In this document: positions 48,335 through 63,148 of the stretch, piece after piece
Position numbering within the stretch: the stretch's first letter is position 1
Layout of the letters: each line of letters opens with the position of its first letter
Assembly: GCF_900215505.1 (NCBI RefSeq)
Contig: NZ_LT907844.1
Location: 62,001-126,000 of the forward strand
Length of the DNA stretch: 64,000 nucleotides
Direction: 5' to 3'
DNA from: Cohaesibacter sp. ES.047
Lineage (GTDB): Bacteria; Pseudomonadota; Alphaproteobacteria; Rhizobiales; Cohaesibacteraceae
Notes under the pieces: model-generated
Databases searched by the model: none
What the model was told of the DNA's origin: nothing
Seen by the model: the letters and a program-made list of their open reading frames with translations, nothing else
Program-made: the position numbers and the translations under genes

Positions 48335-49300
48335 ATGTCCGATCGCAACTCGGAGGGCGGTCGTGCGAACGATGCGTCCTTTGACGGGGCGCAGAGCGGT
48401 TCGGGAGAGGATCCTGAGCCGGGCTTTCCAATTGTCTCAAGAACTGACTTCGCTGAGACCACCTTTCTACTAGAAATCCTGCATCCACTGCTCGCCAGGG
48501 CCGCAAGGCCGGGGCAATTTGTCATTGTCATGACCCATGATCACGGGGAACGTGTTCCCCTGACCATTGCCGACTTCGACCGCGACAGAGGAACTGTCAC
48601 GCTTGTCGTGCAGGCCGTCGGCAAATCGAGCCGCGAGATGCAGTCCATCTGTCAGAAGGGAAGAAAGATCTTCGCGATCGTCGGGCCAATGGGAATTCCA
48701 AGCGAGATTTCCCATGCCAAAAAGGTCATCTGCGTTGGCGGTGGTCTTGGTGTCGCGCCAATCTATCCGCAAGCTCGAGCCTTTAAAGATGCCGGGGCCC
48801 ATGTCATCGGCATTGTTGGTTTTCGAAGCAGCAATCTCATCTTTTGGGAGGAGAAGTTCCGCGCGGTCTGCGACGAGTTCATCGTCTGCACCGACGACGG
48901 GTCTGCCGGCATGAAGGGCTTTGTCACCGACGGCATCAAGCAGGCAATCGAAGCGCATGGCGATATCGATGAGGTGGTCGCCATTGGGCCGCCCATCATG
49001 ATGCGGGCCTGTGCCGAAACCACCCGGCCCTATGGCGTCAAGACGATGGTAAGCCTCAACCCGATCATGGTGGATGGCACCGGAATGTGCGGTGGCTGCC
49101 GTGTCCGGGTGAATGACCGCATCAAGTTCGCCTGTGTTGACGGGCCGGACTTTGACGGCCATGCCGTTGATTTCAACGACCTCATGTCGCGGCTGCATCG
49201 CTATCAGTCCGAGGAGCGCGAAGCGATGGAACGCTATTCCGACAGCTGCCGCCGTCTGGCGATGGAGCCGTCCCCGACCATGCCTGTGGGAGGCAAGTGA
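48335..49300 (+). CDS. Ferredoxin-NADP reductase-like subunit (NfnA/SudB type)
   Basis: FAD/[2Fe-2S] subunit, 321 residues, of the type that pairs with a GltD-like subunit in NADH-dependent ferredoxin:NADP oxidoreductase (NfnAB) or sulfide dehydrogenase. The flavin part is RPGQFVIVMTHDHGERVPLT, the nucleotide part KKVICVGGGLGVAPIYPQAR. The cluster region VDGTGMCGGCRV plus FACVDGPDFDGHAVDF gives Asp247, Cys252, Cys255 and Cys267 as likely ligands. An odd hydrophilic extension of about 30 residues precedes the core. Strong GGGAGGAAA ribosome site. First gene of a five-gene operon, two bases before nfnB. Confidence 0.88.
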   Translation: MSDRNSEGGRANDASFDGAQSGSGEDPEPGFPIVSRTDFAETTFLLEILHPLLARAARPGQFVIVMTHDHGERVPLTIADFDRDRGTVTLVVQAVGKSSREMQSICQKGRKIFAIVGPMGIPSEISHAKKVICVGGGLGVAPIYPQARAFKDAGAHVIGIVGFRSSNLIFWEEKFRAVCDEFIVCTDDGSAGMKGFVTDGIKQAIEAHGDIDEVVAIGPPIMMRACAETTRPYGVKTMVSLNPIMVDGTGMCGGCRVRVNDRIKFACVDGPDFDGHAVDFNDLMSRLHRYQSEEREAMERYSDSCRRLAMEPSPTMPVGGK

Positions 49301-49302
49301 CC

Positions 49303-50811
49303 ATGGTCCGAAAAACCATCCGAACCATTCCGCAAGAGCGGGCGATGATGCCTGTTCTTGATCCGGAAACCCGTGCCAAATGCTTCGATGAAGTCACGCA
49401 CGGCTTTGATCTCGAGAATGCCCTGCTTGAAGCCGAGCGCTGTCTGATGTGCCCGGAACCGGCCTGCGTGTCAGGCTGTCCGGTCAGCATCGATATTCCG
49501 GGCTTCATCGCCCATATGCTGGAAAAGGATTTCCAAGGGGCCTATGACCTTCTGACGGACGCCACACAGCTGCCAGCGGTGTGCGGCAGGGTTTGTCCGC
49601 AAGAGGATCAGTGCGAGGGCGTCTGCGCCGTGGGGGCAGGCACCGGCCTCGAACCGGTGGCCATTGGCCGCCTTGAACGCTGGCTTGGCGATCAGGCCAT
49701 CAAGGAGGGCTGGAAGAAGGTCCATCATATCGAGCCGAACCGCTTCCGAGTTGCCATTGTCGGCTCCGGTCCAGCGGGCATGGCCTGTGCCGCCGACCTT
49801 GCCAAGGCAGGGTGCGCGGTGACCATCTACGAAGCCTTGCATCAACCGGGCGGCGTTCTGCGCTATGGCATTCCCGAGTTTCGTCTGCCCAACAAAGTGG
49901 TCGATGCGGAGATTGCCAACCTCAAGGCACTGGGCGTCGACATCCAGTGCAACATGCTGGTGGGGCGCCTGTTCTCGATTGAGCAGATGCTCGGCGAGAT
50001 GGGCTTTGATGCCGTCTTCATCGGGGTCGGGGCGGGCACGCCGCACTTCATGGATATTCCGGGCGAGAATCTCAACGGCGTTCTGTCGGCCAACGAGTTG
50101 CTGACGCGCTGCAATCTGATGCATGCAGGCGACTTCCCGGGCCACGACACGCCGCTTGGCCTTGGCAAGCGGATTGCGGTCATCGGCTCGGGCAACACGG
50201 CCATGGATGCCATGCGGGTCTCGCTGCGTCTGGGGGCCGAAGAGGTGCATTGCGTCTATCGCCGCTCCGAAGCTGAATGCCCTGCCCGCCTTGAAGAGCT
50301 GCATCACGCACAGGAAGAAGGCATCGCCTTCCATTGGCTGACCAACCCGGTTGAACTGCTCGGAGATACTGACAGCAATGTCCGGGGCATCCGTTGCATT
50401 CGGATGGAGCTTGGCGACCCGGACGCGTCAGGCCGCAGGCGGCCCGTGCCGATCCCGGACAGCGAATTCGATTTCGAGGCGGACACCGTGGTCTATGCCA
50501 TTGGCACCTCGCCCAATCCGATCCTTGGCCAGACATCGAACGTGCGGCTCAACAAGTGGGGCTATATCGATACCGATGCGTCTCTGGCGACATCTCTGGC
50601 GGGGGTCTATGCCGGCGGCGATATCGTGACCGGTGCGGCGACTGTCATTCAGGCGATGGGGGCTGGCCGCAAGGCAGCCCACAGCATCAGAGCCTATCTG
50701 GGCATCCGCGACAGCCAGGCCGTCTACCGGCCAGAGGCAAGCGGCTTTGCAGACAGCCTGTTCGGGATCGACCGCAGCGAGCAGAACTTCAATCCGATTC
50801 GACTGAGTTGA
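49303..50811 (+). CDS. Glutamate synthase small-subunit-like flavoprotein (NfnB/SudA type)
   Basis: Flavoprotein of 504 residues with two [4Fe-4S] cysteine sets near the N-terminus: ERCLMCPEPACVSGCPVSID and LPAVCGRVCPQEDQCEGVCA. An FAD site (VAIVGSGPAGMACAADLA) and a NADPH site (AVIGSGNTAMDAMRVSLRLG) follow. GltD looks the same, but no gltB is present and the partner next door is NfnA-like, which points to an Nfn/Sud complex. NfnAB enzymes couple NADH, NADPH and ferredoxin by flavin bifurcation. Whether bifurcation occurs here is an inference. Confidence 0.88.
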   Translation: MVRKTIRTIPQERAMMPVLDPETRAKCFDEVTHGFDLENALLEAERCLMCPEPACVSGCPVSIDIPGFIAHMLEKDFQGAYDLLTDATQLPAVCGRVCPQEDQCEGVCAVGAGTGLEPVAIGRLERWLGDQAIKEGWKKVHHIEPNRFRVAIVGSGPAGMACAADLAKAGCAVTIYEALHQPGGVLRYGIPEFRLPNKVVDAEIANLKALGVDIQCNMLVGRLFSIEQMLGEMGFDAVFIGVGAGTPHFMDIPGENLNGVLSANELLTRCNLMHAGDFPGHDTPLGLGKRIAVIGSGNTAMDAMRVSLRLGAEEVHCVYRRSEAECPARLEELHHAQEEGIAFHWLTNPVELLGDTDSNVRGIRCIRMELGDPDASGRRRPVPIPDSEFDFEADTVVYAIGTSPNPILGQTSNVRLNKWGYIDTDASLATSLAGVYAGGDIVTGAATVIQAMGAGRKAAHSIRAYLGIRDSQAVYRPEASGFADSLFGIDRSEQNFNPIRLS

Positions 50812-50918: not shown

Positions 50919-52847
50919 ATGACTTCGGAAAGCATCCAAACCCTCGCAGCCCAAGACGGAACAGGCGAGCCGGACGCGCTTAACAAGACCCCGCCTCGCG
51001 CCAGCGTGGCCGAGGTGATCAACGAGCATATCGTCGAAATCGTCAGCGATTCCGGCGAAGGCGCTCAACGCTGCGGCCAGGCGCTCGCAGCCATCGCCGC
51101 CCGGTCGGGCGCAGGCATCTGGACGGTGGAGATCATCCCCGCCGAAATCCAGCCGCCTCATCGCTCCGTCGCAGGGGCCAGCGGTAACCGCGTGCGCATG
51201 GCCGCTCACAAGGTGACCAACGTCGGGGACGAAGCGGATCTCGTCATCGCCTTCAACGAGCAGGTGCTGCTCAGCCGCGTGCGGGCGGGCGAAATCAAAC
51301 CCGGTGGCATCATCCTCATTGAGGAAATGTGGAAGCGCGACAATGATCCCAAAATCGTTGCGGCCTATGAAACAGTGCTCGCGGACATCAAGGATGCTGG
51401 CTACCGGGTCTATGAGATCCCGATGGAAGTCGAGTGCCAGAAGCTGGTGCCCGATCCGCGCAAGGGCAAGAATATGTTCGTGCTCGGCATGCTCTGCGCG
51501 CTCTACAGCCTTGATGATGAGTTGGCTGAGGCGCAGGTGCGGCTGACCTTTGCCAAGAAAGACCAGAAGATCATCAATGCCAACCTTGAGCTGCTTGCGG
51601 CTGGTCGTGCATGGGCCGAAGCCAATCTTGATTTCCGCTATATGATCCCGACCCCACCGGTCGAAAAGCCGCAGATCGTGACCAACGGCAACGCGGCCTT
51701 GGCCCTCGGTGTCGTCGCGTCAGGCATGGAAGTTTGCGCGATGTATCCCATCACCCCGGCAACCTCGGCCTCGCATTATCTCTCGAGCATTTTTGAGAAG
51801 GTGGGCTGCGTGGTGCATCAGGCAGAGGATGAAATCTCGGCCTGTACGTTTGCCATCGGCGCGTCCTATGCGGGCAAATGCGCTGTGACCATCACATCCG
51901 GTCCGGGGCTTTCGCTCAAGCAGGAAGCCATCGGGCTGGCGGTGATGACCGAAATCCCCTTGGTCGTTATCAACGTCCAGCGCGGCGGACCCTCCACTGG
52001 CTTGCCCACCAAGGTGGAACAGGGCGATCTGATGTCGGCCATGTTCGGCAGCCATGGTGACGCACCCAAGGTGGTGATGGCGGTGGACTCGATTGAGGAC
52101 TGCTTCTATTCGGTTATCACGGCGCGCAAGATCGCCGAGACCTTCAACATGGTGGTGGTGATCCTGTCCGATGCGGCTCTGTCGACGGCGCAGCAGCCGT
52201 TCGAGCGCCCCGAATTCCACGCCGACTGGCTGGCCCCTCCTGTCAACCAGAGTGCCGTGCCAAAGGATGCCCATCCCTATGACTGGGATGAGCGGACGGG
52301 CATTGCCACCCGCTTCATACCCGGCCAGCCGAACGGCATGCACTGCCTGACCGGTCTTGCCCATGACCGCGACAGCCATGTGGCCTATGACCCCAAGATC
52401 AATGAAGAAGGCCTGCTCAACAGATCCCGCAAACTCGCGGCCTTCCAGACGACCCTGAAGCTGGCTCCTGTGTTCGGTGATGCGGAGGGCGACCTTCTGC
52501 TCATCGGCTGGGGCAGCACGCGCGGCGCCATTGAGGAAGCTGTCACCGCCCTTCGCGAGGAAGGGCACAAGGTCTCGGCGCTGCATCTGAAATTTCTCCA
52601 ACCCATGGCCTCAGGCATTGACGAAGTGATGGCGCGGTTCAAGAAGGTGATGACCATCGAGAACAACTGGAATGATCCGGTGAGCGACCCGATGATCAAC
52701 CCGAACAACCGTCGCTACTCGCACGTTGCGATGCTGCTGAGATCCCGTTGGCTGGTCGACGTGGATTGCTGGGGCAATGCACGCGGACAACCACTCAAAC
52801 CGGCTGCCATCAAACAAGCCGCGCTTGCAAAATTGGGAAAGGTCTGA
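50919..52847 (+). CDS. korA: 2-oxoacid:ferredoxin oxidoreductase, fused gamma-alpha subunit (KorA type)
   Basis: Large subunit, 642 residues, fusing a gamma domain (about 20-210, EIVSDSGEGAQRCGQALAAI, QPPHRSVAGASGNRVRM) to an alpha domain (from about 245). In the alpha part, CAMYPITPATSASHYLSS, QAEDEISACTFAIGASYAGK and TITSGPGLSLKQEAIGLAVM are the motifs of 2-oxoglutarate and other 2-oxoacid oxidoreductases. QRGGPSTGLPTKVEQGDLM is also typical. It works with KorB to decarboxylate a 2-oxo acid to acyl-CoA while reducing ferredoxin. It follows nfnB after 107 bases. Confidence 0.92.
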   Translation: MTSESIQTLAAQDGTGEPDALNKTPPRASVAEVINEHIVEIVSDSGEGAQRCGQALAAIAARSGAGIWTVEIIPAEIQPPHRSVAGASGNRVRMAAHKVTNVGDEADLVIAFNEQVLLSRVRAGEIKPGGIILIEEMWKRDNDPKIVAAYETVLADIKDAGYRVYEIPMEVECQKLVPDPRKGKNMFVLGMLCALYSLDDELAEAQVRLTFAKKDQKIINANLELLAAGRAWAEANLDFRYMIPTPPVEKPQIVTNGNAALALGVVASGMEVCAMYPITPATSASHYLSSIFEKVGCVVHQAEDEISACTFAIGASYAGKCAVTITSGPGLSLKQEAIGLAVMTEIPLVVINVQRGGPSTGLPTKVEQGDLMSAMFGSHGDAPKVVMAVDSIEDCFYSVITARKIAETFNMVVVILSDAALSTAQQPFERPEFHADWLAPPVNQSAVPKDAHPYDWDERTGIATRFIPGQPNGMHCLTGLAHDRDSHVAYDPKINEEGLLNRSRKLAAFQTTLKLAPVFGDAEGDLLLIGWGSTRGAIEEAVTALREEGHKVSALHLKFLQPMASGIDEVMARFKKVMTIENNWNDPVSDPMINPNNRRYSHVAMLLRSRWLVDVDCWGNARGQPLKPAAIKQAALAKLGKV

Positions 52848-52857
52848 GGAGAGAGCC

Positions 52858-53850
52858 ATGACCGCTTCAATGAGCCAATGTCTGATGCAAATGGTGCAGA
52901 CGGACTACGCAATCAAGGATTATCAAAGTGACATCCAGCCGCGCTGGTGCACCGGCTGTGGTGACACGGCCATCCTCACCGCCATGCAGCGGCTGTGCCG
53001 CGATGAGCAATTGCCGCCCGAAAAGACCGTATGTGTCTCGGGCATCGGCTGTGCCTCGCGCCTGCCTCACTATATGAATGCCTATGGCTTTCACGGTATT
53101 CACGGACGGGCCCTGCCCATCGCTGAAGGGATCAAGATCCGCAGGCCGGACCTGCATGTCTTCGTGACCACGGGGGATGGCGACTGCTGCTCCATCGGTG
53201 CCGCCCACTGGCTGCATGCGATCCGCTACAACATGAACATGACCATGTTGCTGCATGACAACAATGTCTATGGCCTGACAAAGAAACAGGCCTCGCCAAC
53301 CTCACCCAAGGGCCTCAAGAGCAACACCACGCCGACCGGGGCGACCCTTAATCCGCTCAACCCATTGAGCGTGACGCTCGGTGTCGCCAACGTCTCCTTC
53401 GTGGCGCAAGTTGTCGACTGGATTCCCGATCTGCTCTATGACGTTCTGTCGAAGGCCTATCACCACAAGGGCTTTTCCTTCATCCGCATCTTGCAGCGCT
53501 GCCCGAACTTCATGGATCACAATTTCGATCATGCTGTCCGGGACCCGCTCAGCACGCGCATCCTCACCCATTCGGACGGTTTGCGGCTGAAGCCGGAGCT
53601 GTCGCGGGTTTACAAAAATCAGGAAACCCATGACCCGCTCGATCTTGACCGGGCGCGGCAACTGGCGTCGCTGGAGGGAGAAATCCCCGTCGGTATTCTT
53701 TATTCGAACCCGGACGTTCCCTGCTACGACGAGCTGCGCGCCGGTGAACGCCCCAACACCCCGGGCCTTGTCTCGACGGTCCTCAATGAAGAATTCGACA
53801 AGATCGGGATCTGGCCCAAAGACGGCAAACCGGCTGAGAGCGAGGAGTAG
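52858..53850 (+). CDS. korB: 2-oxoacid:ferredoxin oxidoreductase, beta subunit (KorB type)
   Basis: TPP- and [4Fe-4S]-binding subunit, 330 residues. The cluster cysteines are likely C31 and C34 (RWCTGCGDTAIL), C65 (VSGIGCASR) and C215 (LQRCPNFMDH). TPP binding is in TTGDGDCCSIGAAHWLHAI and HDNNVYGLTKKQASPTSPKG. The start MTASMSQCLMQ at 52858 is 10 bases past korA with a GAGGAGAG site. Specificity for 2-oxoglutarate, pyruvate or another oxo acid cannot be read from the sequence. Confidence 0.93.
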   Translation: MTASMSQCLMQMVQTDYAIKDYQSDIQPRWCTGCGDTAILTAMQRLCRDEQLPPEKTVCVSGIGCASRLPHYMNAYGFHGIHGRALPIAEGIKIRRPDLHVFVTTGDGDCCSIGAAHWLHAIRYNMNMTMLLHDNNVYGLTKKQASPTSPKGLKSNTTPTGATLNPLNPLSVTLGVANVSFVAQVVDWIPDLLYDVLSKAYHHKGFSFIRILQRCPNFMDHNFDHAVRDPLSTRILTHSDGLRLKPELSRVYKNQETHDPLDLDRARQLASLEGEIPVGILYSNPDVPCYDELRAGERPNTPGLVSTVLNEEFDKIGIWPKDGKPAESEE

Positions 53851-53855
53851 AGATC

Positions 53856-56084
53856 ATGCAAAACGCTCAAATCGTGCGGGACGATTTCCCGAACTCAGCC
53901 CGGTCCGATGCTGCCGAAGCCCTGCCGTCGCTCAAACCCGCGCTCTTTGCACGCTATGGCAATCTGTCAAAGCTGCGGCATGATTATCCGCTGGTGCTCG
54001 TCGACAGCGACGAGCCGCAGCCTTTGCTGCGCCCGCTAAGCACGATCGTCAACGAGGCCCTCAGGGCAGCAGCTCCGGAAGGACCGGATGGCGAAGAGGT
54101 GCGTATGCAGGTTCTCAAGCTCGAACAGCGCATGCGGGATCGCGCGACCGGTGGTCGCGAGGAACGGCTCACTCAGCTCTGGTGGGCTTGCGAGGCGGAA
54201 CTGGTGGAGGAAGCCGGAGAGGCCCGCTTTGGCTCGCTCGACCAGATCTTTGAGAAGGCGCGCCGCCAGATCAAGGTTGATGGCCGTGTCATCGGGTGCG
54301 ATGACACCACACCAAGCAAGGTGCTCGGCCATATATGGCAGGCCATGCACAAGAACAGGGCGCGGCACTTCCGCAAGCGGGTCGACAGCCTGATCCTGAG
54401 GATGAATGACATCCTGAAGTCCGACCACATGAAATCCGACGAGGCGCACGGAGCCGTTGCGCTCAGCTCGGCCATGGGTCTGGATCGGGATGGCTCCATC
54501 GACTTTTCCAGCCTGTCAGATGTGCTGCATCGCCTCCGGCCGGAGGATCGACTGCCAGCAGACAGGGTCGCCCGGATCAATGAGGCCATCGAGGTTCTAC
54601 AGTCCCAGGTCTTCTTTGGCCCCGGTCGCGCGTCCTATAGCGATCCGGGCAAGGCCATGTGCTACAGCTATGTCTTCAAGAGCTGTTCCGAAGCCCTTGC
54701 CGCCTATCGCGAGCGCCTGCCGAGCCTCGTTGCGCTCACCAAGGCGCTGACCATTGCCGAGCTTGAGGTCGAGAACAAGTATGTTCCCGGCCTGCATGAC
54801 GCAATCTTCGCCTCTTTTGACGAGAGCGATCTGACGGCCGAGCAGATGGACCTGTTGCCACCCGCCATGATCTATCTGCGGGACGGGGTGACGGAAACGC
54901 TGGAAATCGCCCGCGTTTATGAAGCGCTTGCCTGCGGTCTTCCTTTCAAGGTGATGATTCAGGTCGACGACATTCTGGGGCCGACGACACCGGAACCGCC
55001 GCTCAATTCCTTTGGAGCAGGCACCGCGCGTCTTGCCTCGATGGCGATGGGGCTCAACAACGCTTTCGCCATCCAGACCACCAGTGCCCATCTTTACCGG
55101 ATGCGGGATGCCCTCCTGAAAGGCATGGAATATGGCGGGCCGGCCATGTTCTCGATCTATTCGGGCGCAACCCACACGGTCAGGGATGTTGCTCCCTATA
55201 TCCTCGCAGCAGCGGCGACTGAAGCTCGAGCCTTTCCCAGCTTCACCTTCGATCCGTCCGCCGGTCCTGACTGGGCAAGCCGGTTCAATCTCGATGACAA
55301 TCCGCAACTGGATGAAGTCTGGCCGGAACATTCACTCACCTTCGAGAACCAGATCGGCGAATGGAAGGAAGAGCGCGTTGCCTTTACCTTCGGGGATTTT
55401 GCCATCTGCGACGAACGCTATCAGCGCTTCTGCCACGCCATTGCCCAGAGTGACTGGAGCACCAACATGGTGCCCTTTGCCGACTGGCTCAAGGTCGCAG
55501 GCAACACCGACGATGTGCGCAAGCCCTATGTTCTGGGCGTTTTCGATCAGAACCGGCTGATGCGGGTGGCTGTCGACGACAAGATCACCAGCGCAGCACG
55601 CCTTTGTCAGGATGCCTGGCGCGGGCTTAAGGAACTCGCCGGGATCGACAATTCGCATGTGACGGCCGTGTTGCATGAGGAGCGTCTGAAACGAGAGGCC
55701 TTTTTGAAGGAAATGGCGGAGGAGGAAGCGAATCAGCCTTCCGCGCCATCGGCTGCACAGGCTCCCGTGTCCGATGCGGTCAGCGAGGCTCCCAAGGTTG
55801 AAGAAGCGGAAGACGTTGCATCCGATCCCAATGCTGATGGGACCCCGTGGATCGAGACGCCGCGCTGCACGACCTGCAATGAATGCACGCAAATCAACAA
55901 CAAGCTGTTTGCCTTCAATGACGACATGCAGGCCTATATCGCCGATCCTGATGGTGGCACCTACCGGCAACTCGTCGAGGCAGCGGAAAGCTGTCAGGTC
56001 AGCATCATCCATCCGGGCAAGCCGCGCAATCCGGACGAACCCAATCTGGATGAATTGGTCGAACGGGCAGAGCCGTTCAATTGA
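53856..56084 (+). CDS. Unrecognised 742-residue iron-sulfur protein of the Kor/Nfn operon
   Basis: I do not recognise this family with certainty. It starts 5 bases after korB and is clearly part of the operon. There is no signal peptide or membrane helix. Residues 1-300 look soluble and mostly helical. The middle (about 270-600) faintly recalls the C-terminal part of NifJ-type pyruvate:ferredoxin oxidoreductases (ALTIAELEVENKYVPGLHDA, GGPAMFSIYSGA, EARAFPSFTFDPSAGPDW) but lacks a TPP GDG...NN motif. An acidic Ala/Pro/Glu linker (about 622-669) leads to a C-terminal domain with CTTCNEC (C671, C674, C677) and a distant C713, the spacing of a single [4Fe-4S] cluster. It could be an electron-transfer or structural partner of KorAB. 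A terminator follows. Confidence 0.85.
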   Translation: MQNAQIVRDDFPNSARSDAAEALPSLKPALFARYGNLSKLRHDYPLVLVDSDEPQPLLRPLSTIVNEALRAAAPEGPDGEEVRMQVLKLEQRMRDRATGGREERLTQLWWACEAELVEEAGEARFGSLDQIFEKARRQIKVDGRVIGCDDTTPSKVLGHIWQAMHKNRARHFRKRVDSLILRMNDILKSDHMKSDEAHGAVALSSAMGLDRDGSIDFSSLSDVLHRLRPEDRLPADRVARINEAIEVLQSQVFFGPGRASYSDPGKAMCYSYVFKSCSEALAAYRERLPSLVALTKALTIAELEVENKYVPGLHDAIFASFDESDLTAEQMDLLPPAMIYLRDGVTETLEIARVYEALACGLPFKVMIQVDDILGPTTPEPPLNSFGAGTARLASMAMGLNNAFAIQTTSAHLYRMRDALLKGMEYGGPAMFSIYSGATHTVRDVAPYILAAAATEARAFPSFTFDPSAGPDWASRFNLDDNPQLDEVWPEHSLTFENQIGEWKEERVAFTFGDFAICDERYQRFCHAIAQSDWSTNMVPFADWLKVAGNTDDVRKPYVLGVFDQNRLMRVAVDDKITSAARLCQDAWRGLKELAGIDNSHVTAVLHEERLKREAFLKEMAEEEANQPSAPSAAQAPVSDAVSEAPKVEEAEDVASDPNADGTPWIETPRCTTCNECTQINNKLFAFNDDMQAYIADPDGGTYRQLVEAAESCQVSIIHPGKPRNPDEPNLDELVERAEPFN

Positions 56085-56105: not shown

Positions 56106-56133
56106 AAAAAGGCCCGTCTTGCGGGCCTTTTTT
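56106..56133. terminator. Rho-independent terminator, bidirectional
   Basis: AAAAAGGCCCG (56106-56116) and CGGGCCTTTTT (56122-56132) form a perfect hairpin with a 5-base loop and T-runs on both strands. It separates the plus-strand redox operon, which ends at 56084, from the minus-strand M42 gene, which ends at 56152. Confidence 0.92.
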
Positions 56134-56151: not shown

Positions 56152-57324
56152 TCAGGCTTGCGGCCCGAGATCCTCGTTGACCGCGTCCTTGGTCAGATCC
56201 TGCTCGGCTTCAGTTGAGCTTTGGCTGGTGAAGCCGGTGATGCCTGCCTTGAACTGTTCGAAGTCGCGTTTGATTTCGACCGGGCTTCCCAGATAGGCAG
56301 TGATCAGTTCGGCCAGAGACCTGAGCGCATGCATATGAATGCGCTCATAGCCGTGGGATGCATCCACACCGAAGGTGATCAATCCGGTGCGAACGTCCGC
56401 ACCGGCTTCAACGGCGCTGGCTGAATCCGAGCGGTAATATTTGAAGATATCCTTCTGGAAGCGGATGTCATTTTCGCGGCAAAGGCTGACCAGTTTCTTG
56501 GTCAAGTGATAATCGAACGGGCCGGTCTGATCGGCCATGGCGATGGTGACACCGAATTCGGATGAATTCTGCCCCGGGGCCGACGTTCCGTTGTCCACGG
56601 AAATCATCGAGGCGACATCAGGTGTCAGCACCGATGAGGCGCCCACGCCGACCTCTTCAGCGATGGTGAAGAGAAAATGGATATCCACGGGCGTGCGCTG
56701 CTTTTCGTCCTGCATCGCCTTGAGCGCAGTCAGGGCAACCGCAACACCGGCCTTGTTGTCCAGATGACGCGAAACGATGAAGCCATTGTCGATGAATTCG
56801 GACTGCGGATCGATGGCGATCATGTCGCCGATATCGATCCCAAGGCGCTCGATATCCTCGAAGCTGCGCGCAAGGGCATCGACGCGGAACTCGACGTGAT
56901 CCCAGCCGATGGGCTGGGTGTCGATTTCCTCGTTGAAGGTATGCCCGGAGGCCTTGAGCGGCAGGATCGTACCGCGATAGAAGCCACTCTCCGAAAAGAT
57001 CGTCCCGCGTGCCCCTTCGGCAAAACGGGCGGACCAGTGACCAACAGGCACGAGGGCCAAACGGCCATCTTCCTTGACGAACTTGACCTGAGCCCCAAGG
57101 GTGTCGAGGTGCGTCACGATGGCCCTTGCGCCCTTGCGCCGCGAGCCCTGCCGGATGGCGCAAATCGCGCCCCTTCTTGTCAGCTCCGCATCCAGTCCGA
57201 GTGACTTAAGCTCTCTGGTGACAAATCTGACGATCGTGTCGGTGTATCCGGTCGGGCTCGGGATCTCGAGCAGCTTGGCCAGCGTTTTTTGCAGATATTC
57301 GGTATCTATTACCAACATGGTCAT
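56152..57324 (-). CDS. M42-family peptidase of the NAGGN osmoprotectant system
   Basis: Di-metal M42 aminopeptidase-fold hydrolase, 390 residues. Ligand motifs are AIVTHLDTLGAQVKF, SRHLDNKAGVAVALTALK, FTIAEEVGVGASS (catalytic Glu pair) and HGYERIHMHALRSLAELI. It lies 15 bases downstream of ngg, in the same order as in other NAGGN cassettes, where a co-occurring M42 hydrolase is conserved. Its role (breakdown or recycling of the dipeptide) is not established. Confidence 0.9.
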   Translation of the reverse strand: MTMLVIDTEYLQKTLAKLLEIPSPTGYTDTIVRFVTRELKSLGLDAELTRRGAICAIRQGSRRKGARAIVTHLDTLGAQVKFVKEDGRLALVPVGHWSARFAEGARGTIFSESGFYRGTILPLKASGHTFNEEIDTQPIGWDHVEFRVDALARSFEDIERLGIDIGDMIAIDPQSEFIDNGFIVSRHLDNKAGVAVALTALKAMQDEKQRTPVDIHFLFTIAEEVGVGASSVLTPDVASMISVDNGTSAPGQNSSEFGVTIAMADQTGPFDYHLTKKLVSLCRENDIRFQKDIFKYYRSDSASAVEAGADVRTGLITFGVDASHGYERIHMHALRSLAELITAYLGSPVEIKRDFEQFKAGITGFTSQSSTEAEQDLTKDAVNEDLGPQA

Positions 57325-57339
57325 CTTTATGTCTTCCCG

Positions 57340-59124
57340 TCAGCCCTCTTGTTTCTTTTTAAGCTCCTGACGCACGGAAGCAGGCAAAGACCGCGGGAAC
57401 AAGAGATCAATAAAACGTTCTGCTGTCGGTTGTGGTTCATGATTGGCAAGGCCGGGTCGTTCGTTGGCCTCGATGAAAACATAGTCCGGTTTGCGATGAT
57501 CCTTGATCATCAGATCTATGCCGGTAACCGGAATGTCGATAGCGCGCGCTGCCTTCACCGCAGCCTCGATCAGGGTTGTATGCACCTGATCGGTTACGTC
57601 GACAATGGTACCACCTGTATGCAGATTAGCCGTTTTACGGACCACCAATTCCTCGCAGGATGGCAGGCAATCGTCAAGCCCGTATCCGGCCTCGGCGAGA
57701 CACCGTTCCGTTTCCTTGTCGAGAGGAATGCTGCTCTCTCCCCCCGTTGCAGCCGAACGGCGACGGCTTTGTTTTTCAATCAACAGGCGGATGGTGCTCA
57801 TGCCGTCCCCGACAATCCGGGCAGGAAGACGCAGGGCCGCGGCCACCAGCCGGTCGTTGATGACGACGAGGCGCAGATCCTGCCCTTCGAAATATTCTTC
57901 CAGCAGAACGTCCTGACAGACCTCCTTGGCGCGGTCGATGGCAGCAAGCATTTCATCGTAATCGCGCACCCCGACCGCAATGCCCTTACCCTGTTCACCG
58001 CGCGCAGGCTTGACCACCACGGCGCCATATTGCTCGAGAAACGCCCGCAACGGCTCCTCGCCTTCGCCGGCATCGATCTGGGCCGGAACGCGGACGCCAG
58101 CCTCCTCGACAATGCGGCGGGTCATGCGCTTGTCGTCACAGATCGACAGGGTCACCGCGCTTGTCAGATCCGTCAGAGATTCGCGACACCGGATGGTTCG
58201 ACCGCCATAGCTCAGGCGGAACAGTCCGCCCTCCGCATCGATCACTTCGACCTGAATGCCGCGCCGCCATGCCTCATCGACGATAATCTTGGCATAGGGG
58301 TTGAGCCCGGTTTCCTCCTTGTCTCCGACAAAGAGCTTTTCGTTGATCTGGTTCTTGCGCTTGACCGCAAAGACATTGACGCGGCGAAAGCCCAGCTTCT
58401 CATAAAGGGCGATGGCCTTGTCGTTGTCATGCAGGACCGAGAGATCCATGTAGGAGCAGCCTCGGGCCTGATATTGTTCAGCCAGACGCCGCACGAGCGA
58501 CTCGCCAAGGCCGCGATGGGGCGCGGCGGACGAGACCGCCAGACACCACAGAGAGGAGCCTCTCTCCGGATCGTCAAAGGCCTTGGAGTGATCGACCCCC
58601 ATGACCGAGCCCCAGATCTCTCCGGTCTGGGCGTCCTCGGCCACAAGCATGGTCACCTTGCTGGCATCGCGAGCCGACCAGAAAAAGTCAGGCGGGACCG
58701 AAACCATACCACGCTCGGCCAGAATGCCATTGATCGCGTCGGCATCCTTTTTGGTCGACAAACGCCGGATGTGATAGCCCTGCCGCCGCATGCTAGCGGG
58801 GCGGTAGATCGACATATCCAGACGGTAAGTGTGCGACGGATCGAGAAAGAATTCCTGCGGCGACTGAGCCAGAACCACATGTGGATCGCGCACATAAAAG
58901 GCGATGTCACGCTGATCGGCCTTTTCCGACCGCATGACCTCGACCAGCTGTTCCGGGGTCTCAAAGGTGTTACCAAATATCAGCCGCCCCCATCCGCAAT
59001 TGACGGCGACATTCGACTGCGTGAGTTGATGCGAAGACGAATGGAGGGAGTTCATCCCCTCCTGCCTGATCCGCTGCAGCCTGTGCTGGGCGACCGGCTT
59101 TGGCTTCTCACGTTCAGTGCTCAT
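57340..59124 (-). CDS. ngg: N-acetylglutaminylglutamine synthetase
   Basis: Two-domain enzyme, 594 residues, that makes N-acetylglutaminylglutamine. A GNAT acetyltransferase domain (about 115-285; LAVSSAAPHRGLGESLVRRL carries the acetyl-CoA loop) is followed by an ATP-grasp domain (VVVKPARGEQGKGIAVGV, EEYFEGQDLRLVVINDRLVA, DYVFIEANERPGLANHEPQP) like that of cyanophycin-type ligases. The product is amidated by AsnO to the osmoprotectant NAGGN. It lies 6 bases downstream of asnO. Studied in Sinorhizobium and Pseudomonas under salt stress. Confidence 0.92.
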   Translation of the reverse strand: MSTEREKPKPVAQHRLQRIRQEGMNSLHSSSHQLTQSNVAVNCGWGRLIFGNTFETPEQLVEVMRSEKADQRDIAFYVRDPHVVLAQSPQEFFLDPSHTYRLDMSIYRPASMRRQGYHIRRLSTKKDADAINGILAERGMVSVPPDFFWSARDASKVTMLVAEDAQTGEIWGSVMGVDHSKAFDDPERGSSLWCLAVSSAAPHRGLGESLVRRLAEQYQARGCSYMDLSVLHDNDKAIALYEKLGFRRVNVFAVKRKNQINEKLFVGDKEETGLNPYAKIIVDEAWRRGIQVEVIDAEGGLFRLSYGGRTIRCRESLTDLTSAVTLSICDDKRMTRRIVEEAGVRVPAQIDAGEGEEPLRAFLEQYGAVVVKPARGEQGKGIAVGVRDYDEMLAAIDRAKEVCQDVLLEEYFEGQDLRLVVINDRLVAAALRLPARIVGDGMSTIRLLIEKQSRRRSAATGGESSIPLDKETERCLAEAGYGLDDCLPSCEELVVRKTANLHTGGTIVDVTDQVHTTLIEAAVKAARAIDIPVTGIDLMIKDHRKPDYVFIEANERPGLANHEPQPTAERFIDLLFPRSLPASVRQELKKKQEG

Positions 59125-59130
59125 GTTTCG

Positions 59131-60906
59131 CTAAATCTCCTGTGCCTGCAGCCACATTTCGAGCAATGCAACCTGCCAGAGTTCCGACCCGCGCAAGGGC
59201 GTGATGTGGTCGGACGGTGAGTCAAAGAGCTGGTCGAGATAGGATTGCTGGAACAGGCCGCGTTCCTTTGCTGCCTGCGAGCCGAGAGCATCCTGAACCA
59301 TTTCCAGATATGGCCCCTGAATATATTTGAGCGCCGGAACCGGGAAATACCCCTTTGGCCGATCAATGACGGCGGCGGGGATCACGCGGCGGGAGGCTTC
59401 TTTCAAAACGCCCTTGCCACCGTGGGACAATTTGTGCCGGCTGGGGATACGGCCAGCCAGTTCAACCAGTTCGTGATCAAGGAAGGGAACACGCGCCTCA
59501 AGGCCCCAGGCCATGGTCATGTTGTCCACGCGCTTGACCGGATCGTCCACGAGCATGACGTTGGTATCAAGGCGCAGCGCCTTGTCGACCGGCTCACGCG
59601 CACCGGCACGGGCGAAATGTTCGGCGACAAAGGCGGCACTTTCGTCCTTCTCGGCGAGATACTCCGGATTAAGATGCTCGGACATGCGCTTCTGGTCGCG
59701 ATCAAAGAAGGCCTGACGATAGCTTTCGACCGGGTCGTTGGTCTTCTGAAGCGGCGGATACCAGTGATAGCCGCCAAAGACCTCGTCCGCGCCCTGACCG
59801 GACTGCACCACCTTGATGGTCTTGGAAACCTCGCGGCTCAGAAGGTAGAAGCCGATGTTGTCATAGGACACCATCGGTTCGGACATCGCCTTGATGGCGT
59901 GCGGCAGATTTTCCATCATCTCGGCGGACGGGATGTGGATCTGGTGATGATTGGTGCCGTAGTGATTGGCGATGAGATCGGAATATTCGAACTCGTTACC
60001 CTTCTCGTTGTTGGCGTCCTCAAAACCGATCGAATAGGTGGCAAGACCCTCCTGCCCCTGTTCGGCGAGCAGACCCACAATCAGCGATGAATCAACACCG
60101 CCCGAGAGCAGCACGCCAACCGGCACGTCACAGACCATACGGCGGCCTACAGCGGTGCGCAGGCTTTCAAGCAGCATGTCGCACCATTCTTCCTCAGAGC
60201 GCGCTTCATCGGCATCACTGCGTTCGAAGCTCGGTTCCCAATACAGCTTTTCAGTGGAAGAGCCATCGGCTTCGATGATGCGGATGGTCGCTGCGGGCAG
60301 CTTGCGAACACCGTTCAGAAGCGTGCGGGGCGCGGGCACGACGGCATGCCATGACATATAGTGATGAAGAGCAATGCGGTCGATTGAGGTGTCGACGCTG
60401 CCGCCCTTCAGGACCGATTGCAGGGTCGAGCCGAAGCGGATGTGATCCGGACCTTCACTCAGATACAGCGGCTTGATGCCGAAGCGGTCGCGCACCATGA
60501 TCGTGCGACCCGTGCGACGTTCGAAAATCACGAAGGCAAACATGCCCTGAAGACGGGGAATGGCGGCTTCGCCCCATTGCTCCCACGCCTTGATGATCAC
60601 CTCGGTATCCCCTTGGGACTTGAAGCTGTGACCGAGGCCTTTGAGCTCTTCACGCAGTTCGGGATAGTTGTAGATGCAGCCGTTGAAGACCATCACCCGG
60701 TCGTTGACTTCATCCTCGAACGGCTGGGCGGATGCATCCGACAAGTCGATGATCCTGAGACGGCGATGCCCCATGCCGACATTGCCGCGCACATAGGTAC
60801 CCTGCGCATCAGGACCGCGCGACACGAGGCAATCGGTCATTGCCTCAATTTGTTGGAGCGGAACTTCGGTGCCGTTGAACCTGACTTCGCCGCAAATACC
60901 ACACAT
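59131..60906 (-). CDS. asnO: N-acetylglutaminylglutamine amidotransferase (AsnB-like)
   Basis: Asparagine-synthase-type amidotransferase of 591 residues. MCGICGEVRFNGTEV starts at 60906 so that Cys2 becomes the N-terminal glutaminase nucleophile; an in-frame start at 60933 would break this. The synthetase domain holds VGVLLSGGVDSSLIVGLL (PP-loop) and YSIGFEDANNEKGNEFEY. In the NAGGN pathway it makes the C-terminal amide. It is the first gene of asnO-ngg-M42 and is divergent from the MarR gene. Confidence 0.92.
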   Translation of the reverse strand: MCGICGEVRFNGTEVPLQQIEAMTDCLVSRGPDAQGTYVRGNVGMGHRRLRIIDLSDASAQPFEDEVNDRVMVFNGCIYNYPELREELKGLGHSFKSQGDTEVIIKAWEQWGEAAIPRLQGMFAFVIFERRTGRTIMVRDRFGIKPLYLSEGPDHIRFGSTLQSVLKGGSVDTSIDRIALHHYMSWHAVVPAPRTLLNGVRKLPAATIRIIEADGSSTEKLYWEPSFERSDADEARSEEEWCDMLLESLRTAVGRRMVCDVPVGVLLSGGVDSSLIVGLLAEQGQEGLATYSIGFEDANNEKGNEFEYSDLIANHYGTNHHQIHIPSAEMMENLPHAIKAMSEPMVSYDNIGFYLLSREVSKTIKVVQSGQGADEVFGGYHWYPPLQKTNDPVESYRQAFFDRDQKRMSEHLNPEYLAEKDESAAFVAEHFARAGAREPVDKALRLDTNVMLVDDPVKRVDNMTMAWGLEARVPFLDHELVELAGRIPSRHKLSHGGKGVLKEASRRVIPAAVIDRPKGYFPVPALKYIQGPYLEMVQDALGSQAAKERGLFQQSYLDQLFDSPSDHITPLRGSELWQVALLEMWLQAQEI

Positions 60907-60948
60907 ATCTTGTGAAGGTCTCCTTAAAACCATTTGATCAAGAATTAT

Positions 60949-61645: not shown

Positions 61646-63148
61646 TCAGGTCTCTCTTGAGCCGAACGACTTTCTCGCCCGGTTGAGCATTTTCAAAAGC
61701 GGGATCGTCCAGATGATCAACGTCAGGACACCAAGCACCCCGGCCACCGGACGATCGAAGAAGCCCAGAATGGCACCATCGGTCTTGATGACTGTTGCCA
61801 TGAAGTTTTCCTCAAGCATTGGCCCGATGACGATCCCCAGAATGACCGGCGCCAGAGGAAAGCCGTTTTCTTCCATGATGAATCCGATCACGCCCAGCAC
61901 CAGCATGACACTGATGCCGTAGGTGCTGTTGGTAATCGAGAAGGACCCCACGATACAGAAGATCAGAATGATCGGCATGATGACATTGGCCGGCGCGCGC
62001 AGCACGTAGCGGGCACTGCGGATGGCCGCGTAGCCCAGTGGGATGAGCATCAGGTTGGCGATGAAGAAGGTCAGGAAGATGCCATAGGTCAGATCCGCCT
62101 GCTGGATGAAGACCATGGGGCCGGGCGTGATGCCCTTCATGAACAGAACGCCGATTGCGATTGCTGTTACCGAGTCGCCGGGAATACCGAACACCAGGGC
62201 AGGCACCCAGACACCGCTCAGACCGGCATTGTTGGCAGCACCAGCAGCAACAAGCCCCTCTTCATGCCCCGTGCCGAACTTTTGCGGTTCGCGAGCAAAC
62301 TTCTTGGACAGGGCGTAGGAGACCCAGGCGGCGATATCGGCCCCAGCGCCGGGGAGGATGCCGACGATGGTGCCGATAAGGCTTCCCCGGACCAGATGAC
62401 TTTTGTTCCTTAACATCATCTTGCCCTGCCCGGCGAAAACGCTCGACCGCCCGGGGGCAATGGTTGATCGGTTCTGTTGGGGAGAGATCGCAAAGCGCAA
62501 CAGCTCGGTCATGGCGAACATGCCGATCATCGCCGGAATGAAGCTGATCCCGGCCATGAGTTCGACATTGCCGAATGTGAAGCGCGGGTAGCCGCCGATC
62601 ACATCAATGCCGATTGTCGAGATGAAGAGCCCCAGAAGCAATGCGATCATGCCCTTGGTGCGGGATCCGCGCGAGATGACAACCGAGCAGCTCAGGCCAA
62701 GACAGGCAAGCCAGAAATACTCGACCGTTGAGAATTGAAAAGCGAACTCGGCCAGATAGGGCGCTCCGGTCGACAGGATAACCGCGCCCACAAGCCCGCC
62801 AAAGACAGAGCTGACAAGCCCGATGCCGAGGGCTTTTTCAGCCTCACCGCGCTGGGTCATGTTAAAGGCTTCATCGACATAGGCCGCAGAGGCTGGCGTG
62901 CCGGGAATGCGCAGCAGTGCGCCGGGTATGTCCCCTGCAAAGATCGCCATAGCAACGCTGGTTACGATCGCCGCAATCGCAGGCAAGGGATCCATAAAGA
63001 AGGTAATAGGCACCAGCAGCGCCGTGGCCATGGTTGCCGAAAGCCCGGGGACGGCGCCAACAAACAGGCCAAACATGGCCGATCCCAGAATGACCATCAG
63101 AACATAGGGCTCGGTGACTTGGCTGAAAGCTGAGAGAAGAACGTCCAT
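61646..63148 (-). CDS. tctA: Tripartite tricarboxylate transporter large membrane protein (TctA)
   Basis: Twelve-helix membrane carrier, 500 residues, that moves a carboxylate bound by TctC. Motifs: AVPGLSATMATALLVPITF and GILPGAGADIAAWVSYALSK (twin glycine-rich TctA signatures), DIPGALLRIPGTPASAAYVD and VFGIPGDSVTAIAIGVLF. The ATG at 63148 is 4 bases past tctB; the longer frame opens with TTG. Substrate may be citrate or another acid. Confidence 0.93.
   Translation of the reverse strand: MDVLLSAFSQVTEPYVLMVILGSAMFGLFVGAVPGLSATMATALLVPITFFMDPLPAIAAIVTSVAMAIFAGDIPGALLRIPGTPASAAYVDEAFNMTQRGEAEKALGIGLVSSVFGGLVGAVILSTGAPYLAEFAFQFSTVEYFWLACLGLSCSVVISRGSRTKGMIALLLGLFISTIGIDVIGGYPRFTFGNVELMAGISFIPAMIGMFAMTELLRFAISPQQNRSTIAPGRSSVFAGQGKMMLRNKSHLVRGSLIGTIVGILPGAGADIAAWVSYALSKKFAREPQKFGTGHEEGLVAAGAANNAGLSGVWVPALVFGIPGDSVTAIAIGVLFMKGITPGPMVFIQQADLTYGIFLTFFIANLMLIPLGYAAIRSARYVLRAPANVIMPIILIFCIVGSFSITNSTYGISVMLVLGVIGFIMEENGFPLAPVILGIVIGPMLEENFMATVIKTDGAILGFFDRPVAGVLGVLTLIIWTIPLLKMLNRARKSFGSRET

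Follow-up and report, generated by a model that had tools for sequence, protein, structure and literature searches.

PorD and OorD are small dicluster proteins that serve as the ferredoxin-like subunit accompanying KorAB-type subunits, and in KorABC of Azoarcus and the phenylglyoxylate dehydrogenase PadEFGHI a 2-oxoacid oxidoreductase is encoded together with a GltD-like NAD(P) reductase subunit. We know of no NfnA-type subunit in KorABC or PadEFGHI, nor of one resembling the protein analyzed here, which was given the working name px. In Cohaesibacter sp. ES.047, px likewise appears to be a ferredoxin-like subunit accompanying KorAB-type subunits, as are PorD and the OorD subunit of Helicobacter OorDABC (PDB 8ys5), but it combines one cluster with a PFOR-derived body of ~600 residues. 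With the large tailed type of PFOR/NifJ (L024, L146, L147, and L021) px is colinear from a point before domain V and shares a helical insert, whereas it is devoid of the N-terminal half, the eight domain-V cysteines, three of the four proximal-cluster cysteines, and the TPP motif. Unlike the NfnAB enzymes of known structure (5jca/4ylf), the NfnAB-type proteins found here have genes that accompany those for KorAB and px at all px loci where this is visible, and KorA of the cassette is only 23 to 38% identical to the other KorA-like proteins compared. What is new, as far as sequence can tell, would be a KorAB-type enzyme that includes a pseudoenzyme subunit derived from PFOR; neither the px subunit nor the cassette was found described in the open literature, with most subscription papers lying outside this coverage. 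The reading that we prefer, at a probability of roughly 0.6, regards px as a pseudoenzyme subunit with a tail that takes the place of free ferredoxin and carries electrons from the KorB cluster to NfnAB.

The window, i.e., the whole stretch of 64,000 nucleotides analyzed, corresponds to positions 62001 to 126000 of the single contig that forms the 5.1-Mb genome; NCBI taxonomy places Cohaesibacter in the Hyphomicrobiales. Five genes on the plus strand make up a compact run in the order nfnA-nfnB-korA-korB-px. nfnA (48335..49300) encodes a predicted small subunit of the NfnAB type with an Asp plus 3 Cys motif for a [2Fe-2S] cluster, and nfnB (49297..50811) the GltD-like large subunit of this type, with both N-terminal [4Fe-4S] motifs intact. 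korA (50919..52847) encodes a fused gamma-alpha subunit (TIGR03710) with an intact YPITP motif, and korB (52858..53850) the TPP-binding beta subunit, in which the cluster cysteines C31, C34, C65, and C215 and the GDGD motif are intact. The last gene, px (53856..56084), starts with ATG, has 742 codons plus a stop codon, and encodes a putative PFOR-derived pseudoenzyme of 742 amino acids with a C-terminal ferredoxin tail. As an earlier note on this DNA had stated, px follows korB by five bases, korB ending at 53850; the 3′ end of korB contains a GAGGAG sequence located 8 bases ahead of the px start codon. Between the five open reading frames there is no room for a ferredoxin gene. A terminator-like hairpin of 12 pairs followed by a T-run (56106..56132, plus strand, also readable on the minus strand) is located just 3′ of px; the terminator scan is not significant alone (4 sites in the region versus 6.2 expected in shuffles), and it is the position of the hairpin that is telling. 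The adjoining osmoprotectant NAGGN genes (window positions 56152 to 60933, minus strand) are convergent to the cassette and include those for an M42 peptidase and N-acetylglutaminylglutamine synthetase, both recognized by NCBIfam, and an asparagine-synthetase-like open reading frame assigned by eye.

A named-genome scan yielded 236 relatives, of which the best 80 were kept and checked, the remainder possibly including tailed PFORs; a scan of the named genomes with the single px sequence had found nothing. The earlier note had proposed counting how often the genes stay together in other alphaproteobacteria. This frame proved too narrow, many of the best 80 of the 236 records being labeled betaproteobacteria and most of these 80 either alpha- or betaproteobacteria, and the count itself bore out the association: wherever the contig reaches, px stays beside korAB and nfnAB, with korB upstream in 77/77, korA in 64/64, nfnB in 60/60, and nfnA in 55/55 cases among these best 80 of 236 records. 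A single gene order was found across the loci with enough upstream DNA. Two loci labeled Anaerolineae (L038) and Chitinophaga (L111) contain proteobacterial-like cassettes and probably represent mis-binned contigs.

At the level of the class, px was present in 5 of 385 genomes, this one included, and a close-type KorA (61 to 100% identity) in exactly the same five of the 385; KorA matches at an E value of ≤1e-50 in 99 other class genomes had at most 38% identity and were not accompanied by px. No NfnB match at an E value of ≤1e-60 was obtained in the three px-lacking genomes of the same genus that were tested (G008, G010, and G017) out of four (the remaining one being G005). By gene content and order, the cassette acts as a single unit. 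When the body of px was used as a profile, 49 of 398 phylum genomes gave matches, and this genome was the sole one of px type by score; the other matches were mostly frames of 1651 to 1698 or 546 to 592 amino acids, with two shorter ones (415 and 142 amino acids), and the TPP motif was present in 12/12 read or checked of the 48 other body-matching genomes. A comparison of the px body between the window and L003 gave a dN of 0.073 and a dS of 0.91 for this one pair, and the body is, by such substitution rates, under purifying selection. A relic of a decaying gene is ruled out by the intact frames and the low dN/dS.

Outside the cassette span, no open reading frame family (35% identity, 60% length) occurred in more than 5 of the 80 loci, with 2 kb visible downstream in 66/80 and upstream in about 53/80; five minus-strand families (5 to 17 loci) are contained entirely within the span and resemble shadow open reading frames. 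This absence of a gene family recurring widely beside the cassette speaks against an improbable alternative in which flow is reversed, NfnAB splitting the electrons of NADPH and px taking the low-potential ones to an acyl-CoA-carboxylating KorAB or to nitrogenase or another reductase. Such a direction would be in line with the presence of an NfnAB-type reductase with its cluster motifs and with the occurrence of nifH, which scored above cut-off in 12/14 px-bearing versus 0/3 px-lacking Cohaesibacter genomes tested, a comparison that ignores kinship; in this genome, nifH (contig positions 3477551-3478372) exceeds the NCBIfam cut-off. KorAB is reported to feed benzoyl-CoA reductase in Thauera (PMC9973337), which also counts for this direction. 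Outside the genus, however, nifH scored above cut-off in only one of four px-bearing genomes (in G208, but not in G113, G176, and G256). The pairing of nifH and px in Cohaesibacter may be due to a set of genes for an anaerobic lifestyle and not to a role with nitrogenase, and px as a dedicated nitrogenase feeder was rejected for lack of support beyond the genus.

KorA exceeded the cut-off of TIGR03710 (516.5 versus 482.75 bits) and KorB remained under that of TIGR02177 (239.6 versus 261.9); the best solved match of both was the 2-oxoglutarate:ferredoxin oxidoreductase of Magnetococcus (6n2n). The partner motifs were intact, which speaks for px as a wire from KorB to NfnAB: the KorB cluster cysteines were present in 60/60 and the KorA YPITP motif in 61/61 sequences, with 44/68 matching a more stringent pattern centered on the fourth cysteine of KorB. 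The best solved matches of nfnA and nfnB were 5jca of Pyrococcus (E value of 7e-93) and 4ylf of Thermotoga (E value of 7e-162), respectively; both NfnB clusters were present in 59/59 and the Asp plus 3 Cys motif of NfnA in 54/54. The pair is assigned to NfnAB on the strength of homology and the Fe-S motifs of both subunits. At six loci (L071, L078, L080, L083, L090, and L102), a second KorA-KorB pair with 23 to 35% identity to that of the cassette occurs a few kilobases from px, in five of the six with a GltD-like protein of ~600 amino acids; these second pairs are possibly KorABC of the Azoarcus type. With respect to the substrate, Arg in 60/60 sequences occupies the site that corresponds to Lys49 in Sulfolobus OFOR. 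The published mutants of the Sulfolobus enzyme at the substrate-choice residues do not let this Arg be read as indicating either 2-oxoglutarate or pyruvate (PMC5020499), so that an assignment from active-site residues was discarded. Going by the nearest solved structure, 2-oxoglutarate would be the likeliest substrate.

The body of px (residues ~26 to 605) was shown by pairwise and profile comparison to be homologous to and colinear with the C-terminal half of the large ferredoxin-tailed PFORs. In a two-sequence BLASTP comparison, px matched the full PFOR of the same genome (1661 amino acids) with 106 bits and an E value of 3e-27. Using hhalign, the px body without the tail aligned with nine PFOR C-terminal halves at 99.9% probability (E value of 7e-33) over 302 columns, approximately residues 267 to 605, and the N-terminal third alone (residues ~26 to 262) at 97.5% (E value of 5e-12); when the latter was rerun, the raw score was 86.3, whereas 40 column-shuffles gave at most 22.4 and reversal gave 14.6. 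The colinearity with the tailed PFORs begins shortly ahead of domain V and extends to the end. It includes a helical insert, located behind the proximal-cluster motif, that px and tailed PFORs have in common and that is missing in the alignment from E. coli YdbK and the 555-residue PFOR subunits. Residues 26 to 270 (53931..54665, plus strand) are accordingly interpreted as a remnant of PFOR domain V and the proximal-cluster region including this insert, with the domain-V ligands gone; residues 336 to 445 (54861..55190, plus strand) as the former TPP-binding fold; and residues 446 to 605 (55191..55670, plus strand) as the post-TPP region, which is the best-kept part of the body. Identity to two PFORs was 30 and 28% in the post-TPP region and 29 and 29% in the helix before the TPP fold.

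AlphaFold2 was used to model px from 54 sequences, resulting in a mean pLDDT of 83 and a pTM of 0.72; in the region of residues 26 to 270, the model features helices at residues 77 to 98, 105 to 120, and 152 to 192. The first 24 Foldseek matches of the model were all PFOR or oxalate oxidoreductase chains, the PFOR matches being geometrically poor (nine at E values of 2e-4 to 1e-3, TM-score over px of ≤0.23, rmsd of 9 to 13 Å), and the fold search is in weak agreement with the homology. A sequence search of the PDB with the px profile returned matches to the tail plus four at E values of 0.45 to 1.1 that were taken as chance. NCBIfam contained no family matching px, and only the Pfam family Fer4_13, on the tail, passed its cut-off, in keeping with the view of the earlier note that no named family exists for the protein. 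The faint resemblance to PFOR remarked there has turned out to be real homology by BLASTP and hhalign, and the suggestion of a degenerate PFOR half with a new job gained support from profile homology, from residue-by-residue loss of cofactor sites, and from the tree described below.

The eight cysteines of domain V, the four of the proximal cluster, and the motifs GDG and SNTGGQ are each invariant among the true PFOR halves (9/9). In px, both [4Fe-4S] clusters of domain V, with their eight cysteines, are missing, the segment of the second cluster being deleted in the alignment, and only one of the four proximal-cluster cysteine positions is kept; this residue, Cys148 (54297..54299, plus strand), is invariant in 54/54 aligned sequences. 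SNTGG, GCGE, and any C..C..C upstream of the tail were each found in 0 of the 80 px loci, one of which, L095, covers px only in part owing to a split reading frame. At that locus (L095:9314-11542), px is in two pieces of 203 and 524 amino acids, reflecting a frame break in the metagenome assembly. The N-terminal half of PFOR with the pyrimidine-binding and CoA domains and domains II and III is absent as well, and the alignment proper starts only near column 855 of 1800.

At the former TPP site, GDG and SNTGGQ have been lost, confirming the previously noted absence of a TPP motif, and a QxDDIL motif is conserved instead (D371 in 52/54 and D372 in 51/54). That px is a divergent but still active TPP enzyme is extremely improbable. 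The retained TPP-type fold region, an aspartate at position 343 in 26/54 sequences, and a loose GDG-x25-32-N string in 10/80 loci can be cited in favor of activity, but by context all of these 10 strings are located elsewhere than at the former TPP site, A or G takes the place of the GDG aspartate in 22/54 sequences, SNTGG is lacking in all 80 loci as stated above, and the pyrimidine-binding (KorA-like) half does not form part of px. An active TPP enzyme was rejected on these grounds. Two further body cysteines are nearly invariant (C277 in 49/54 and C584 in 50/54 aligned sequences). Together with C148 and QxDDIL, their conservation suggests that the body does something specific; in a body that is expected to be free of cofactors, C148, C277, C584, and D371-D372 could possibly form a metal site, a disulfide, or the site of a new ligand.

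The body is followed by a linker (residues 606 to 662; 55671..55841, plus strand) that is rich in Ala, Pro, and Ser, acidic as previously described, and part helical, part predicted to be disordered. Its 57 residues comprise 15 D+E, 5 K+R, and 22 A+P+S, and the pLDDT values in the px model are below 50 for residues 631 to 636 and 638 to 658. The tail (residues 664 to 742; 55845..56081, plus strand) is predicted to form a single [4Fe-4S] ferredoxin domain (Fer4_13), and the Cx2Cx2C motif plus distant cysteine recognized earlier, i.e., the ligands C671, C674, C677, and C713, are all present. Fer4_13 matched residues 670 to 719 with 25 bits at a Pfam cut-off of 24.5, and three other px proteins scored 28.3 and 25.9 bits, above the cut-off, and 21.7 bits, below it. 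The best PDB match of the tail was ferredoxin I (1dax). Within the genome, the px tail was the only Fer4_13 match at an E value of ≤0.001, in a scan that missed the PFOR tail of this genome (20.1 bits in a separate scan). The tail showed 51% identity (40/78) to that of the Rnf-linked PFOR of L024 and 30% (17/57) to that of the PFOR of its own genome.

All tail cysteines were kept in 17/17 full-length homologues found with the whole protein, an 18th homologue (G256) that is truncated by the contig end being left out of this count. The ligands were also present in 80/80 named loci; as tail patterns had been used to retrieve these loci, however, the conservation of their tails does not count as independent evidence. 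The same bias applies to the tail being the most conserved segment of px, with a mean top-residue frequency of 0.80 versus 0.47 to 0.64 elsewhere. Subject to it, this conservation argues against an unlikely alternative, in which px would act chiefly in structure or assembly, as a dead KorB/PFOR partner that completes or stabilizes the Kor oligomer, with the tail as an exit port to free ferredoxin and NfnAB drawing on the free pool. The body, being large and under purifying selection, exceeds the needs of a bare wire, which favors such a role, as does the post-TPP region being its best-kept part; moreover, NfnAB elsewhere works with free ferredoxin. Against it also stands the five-gene cassette, which was never seen split where the contig reaches.

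Descent of px from a tailed PFOR was examined in a tree of 26 rows rooted on YdbK. The 12 px rows formed one clade (support 100/100) inside the tailed PFORs, placed next to Rnf-linked PFORs with a support of 88/84, which is below the strong threshold; the stem of the px clade is long (1.3 to 1.6 changes per column, depending on the drawing). At L024, rnfB and rnfC score above cut-off and flank the tailed PFOR on either side; at L146, rnfD is above cut-off, and at L147, an rnfB-like gene is just under it (64.6 versus 68.7). The location of these ~1650-residue tailed PFORs among rnf genes suggests a PFOR wired directly to Rnf. In this genome, the tailed PFOR adjoins an NfnBA-like fusion (NF009415, 1670 bits versus a cut-off of 1519). 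At L024, L146, and L147 and in this genome, complete PFORs bearing such a tail have an electron acceptor encoded next to them, a point in favor of the proposed wiring. The latter pair, which lies outside the window, consists of the 1661-residue PFOR with its own single-cluster tail (L021:3459-8444, minus strand) and the fusion protein of 919 amino acids (L021:703-3462, minus strand), at about 164.7 to 172.4 kb of the contig, and represents a second self-contained system from 2-oxoacid to NAD(P) in the genome. The plasmid collection contributed two records (Persicobacter and Gemmatirosa), both full tailed PFORs. PFOR subunits of ~555 amino acids (L127, L128, L129, L130, and L135) have intact clusters and TPP motif, fall outside the tailed types in the tree, and are apparently active split PFORs.

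Our preferred interpretation, px as adaptor and wire, would derive the protein from a large PFOR with a C-terminal ferredoxin tail that was reduced to its C-terminal half, leaving catalysis to KorAB. We infer a physical complex in which KorAB would oxidize a 2-oxoacid to acyl-CoA and CO2, the electrons exiting via the single [4Fe-4S] cluster of KorB. The PFOR-like body of px would dock on the Kor/Nfn assembly, serving in place of the docking surface expected of a tailed PFOR, and the flexibly linked [4Fe-4S] tail would shuttle electrons to the N-terminal clusters of NfnB and further via two flavins to NAD(P); NfnAB may also couple electrons to NADH. In this manner, the five genes would specify one channeled 2-oxoacid:NAD(P)+ oxidoreductase that operates without free ferredoxin. 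Counted against this interpretation are the poor Foldseek geometry, the tail-based selection of the loci, the 88/84 support for the sister group, and, concerning the need for a px enzyme, an ordinary 2-oxoglutarate dehydrogenase E1 also encoded in the genome; a pure adaptor role leaves the near-invariance of C148, C277, and C584 unexplained. Any free 2×[4Fe-4S] ferredoxins encoded elsewhere in the genome may serve instead of the px tail. The more far-reaching proposal of a widespread and undescribed five-subunit enzyme, an OFOR-type 2-oxoacid dehydrogenase with a fixed connection to a confurcating NfnAB through a stripped PFOR that keeps its tail, is put forward tentatively, the odds being somewhat against it.

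The analysis proposes a function for an unannotated family with at least 80 named records and predicts a distinct KorAB subfamily that does not use free ferredoxin, which would alter models of redox balance in these bacteria. px offers a clean example of one half of a redox enzyme being retained after cofactor loss, and electron channeling from an OFOR to NfnAB becomes directly testable. If the proposed role is true, px would represent a rare case in which a multi-cluster redox enzyme has become a pseudoenzyme subunit within a relative of itself, and the cassette would link the oxidation of 2-oxoacids at low potential to NADH as well as NADP(H), directly and independently of ferredoxin.
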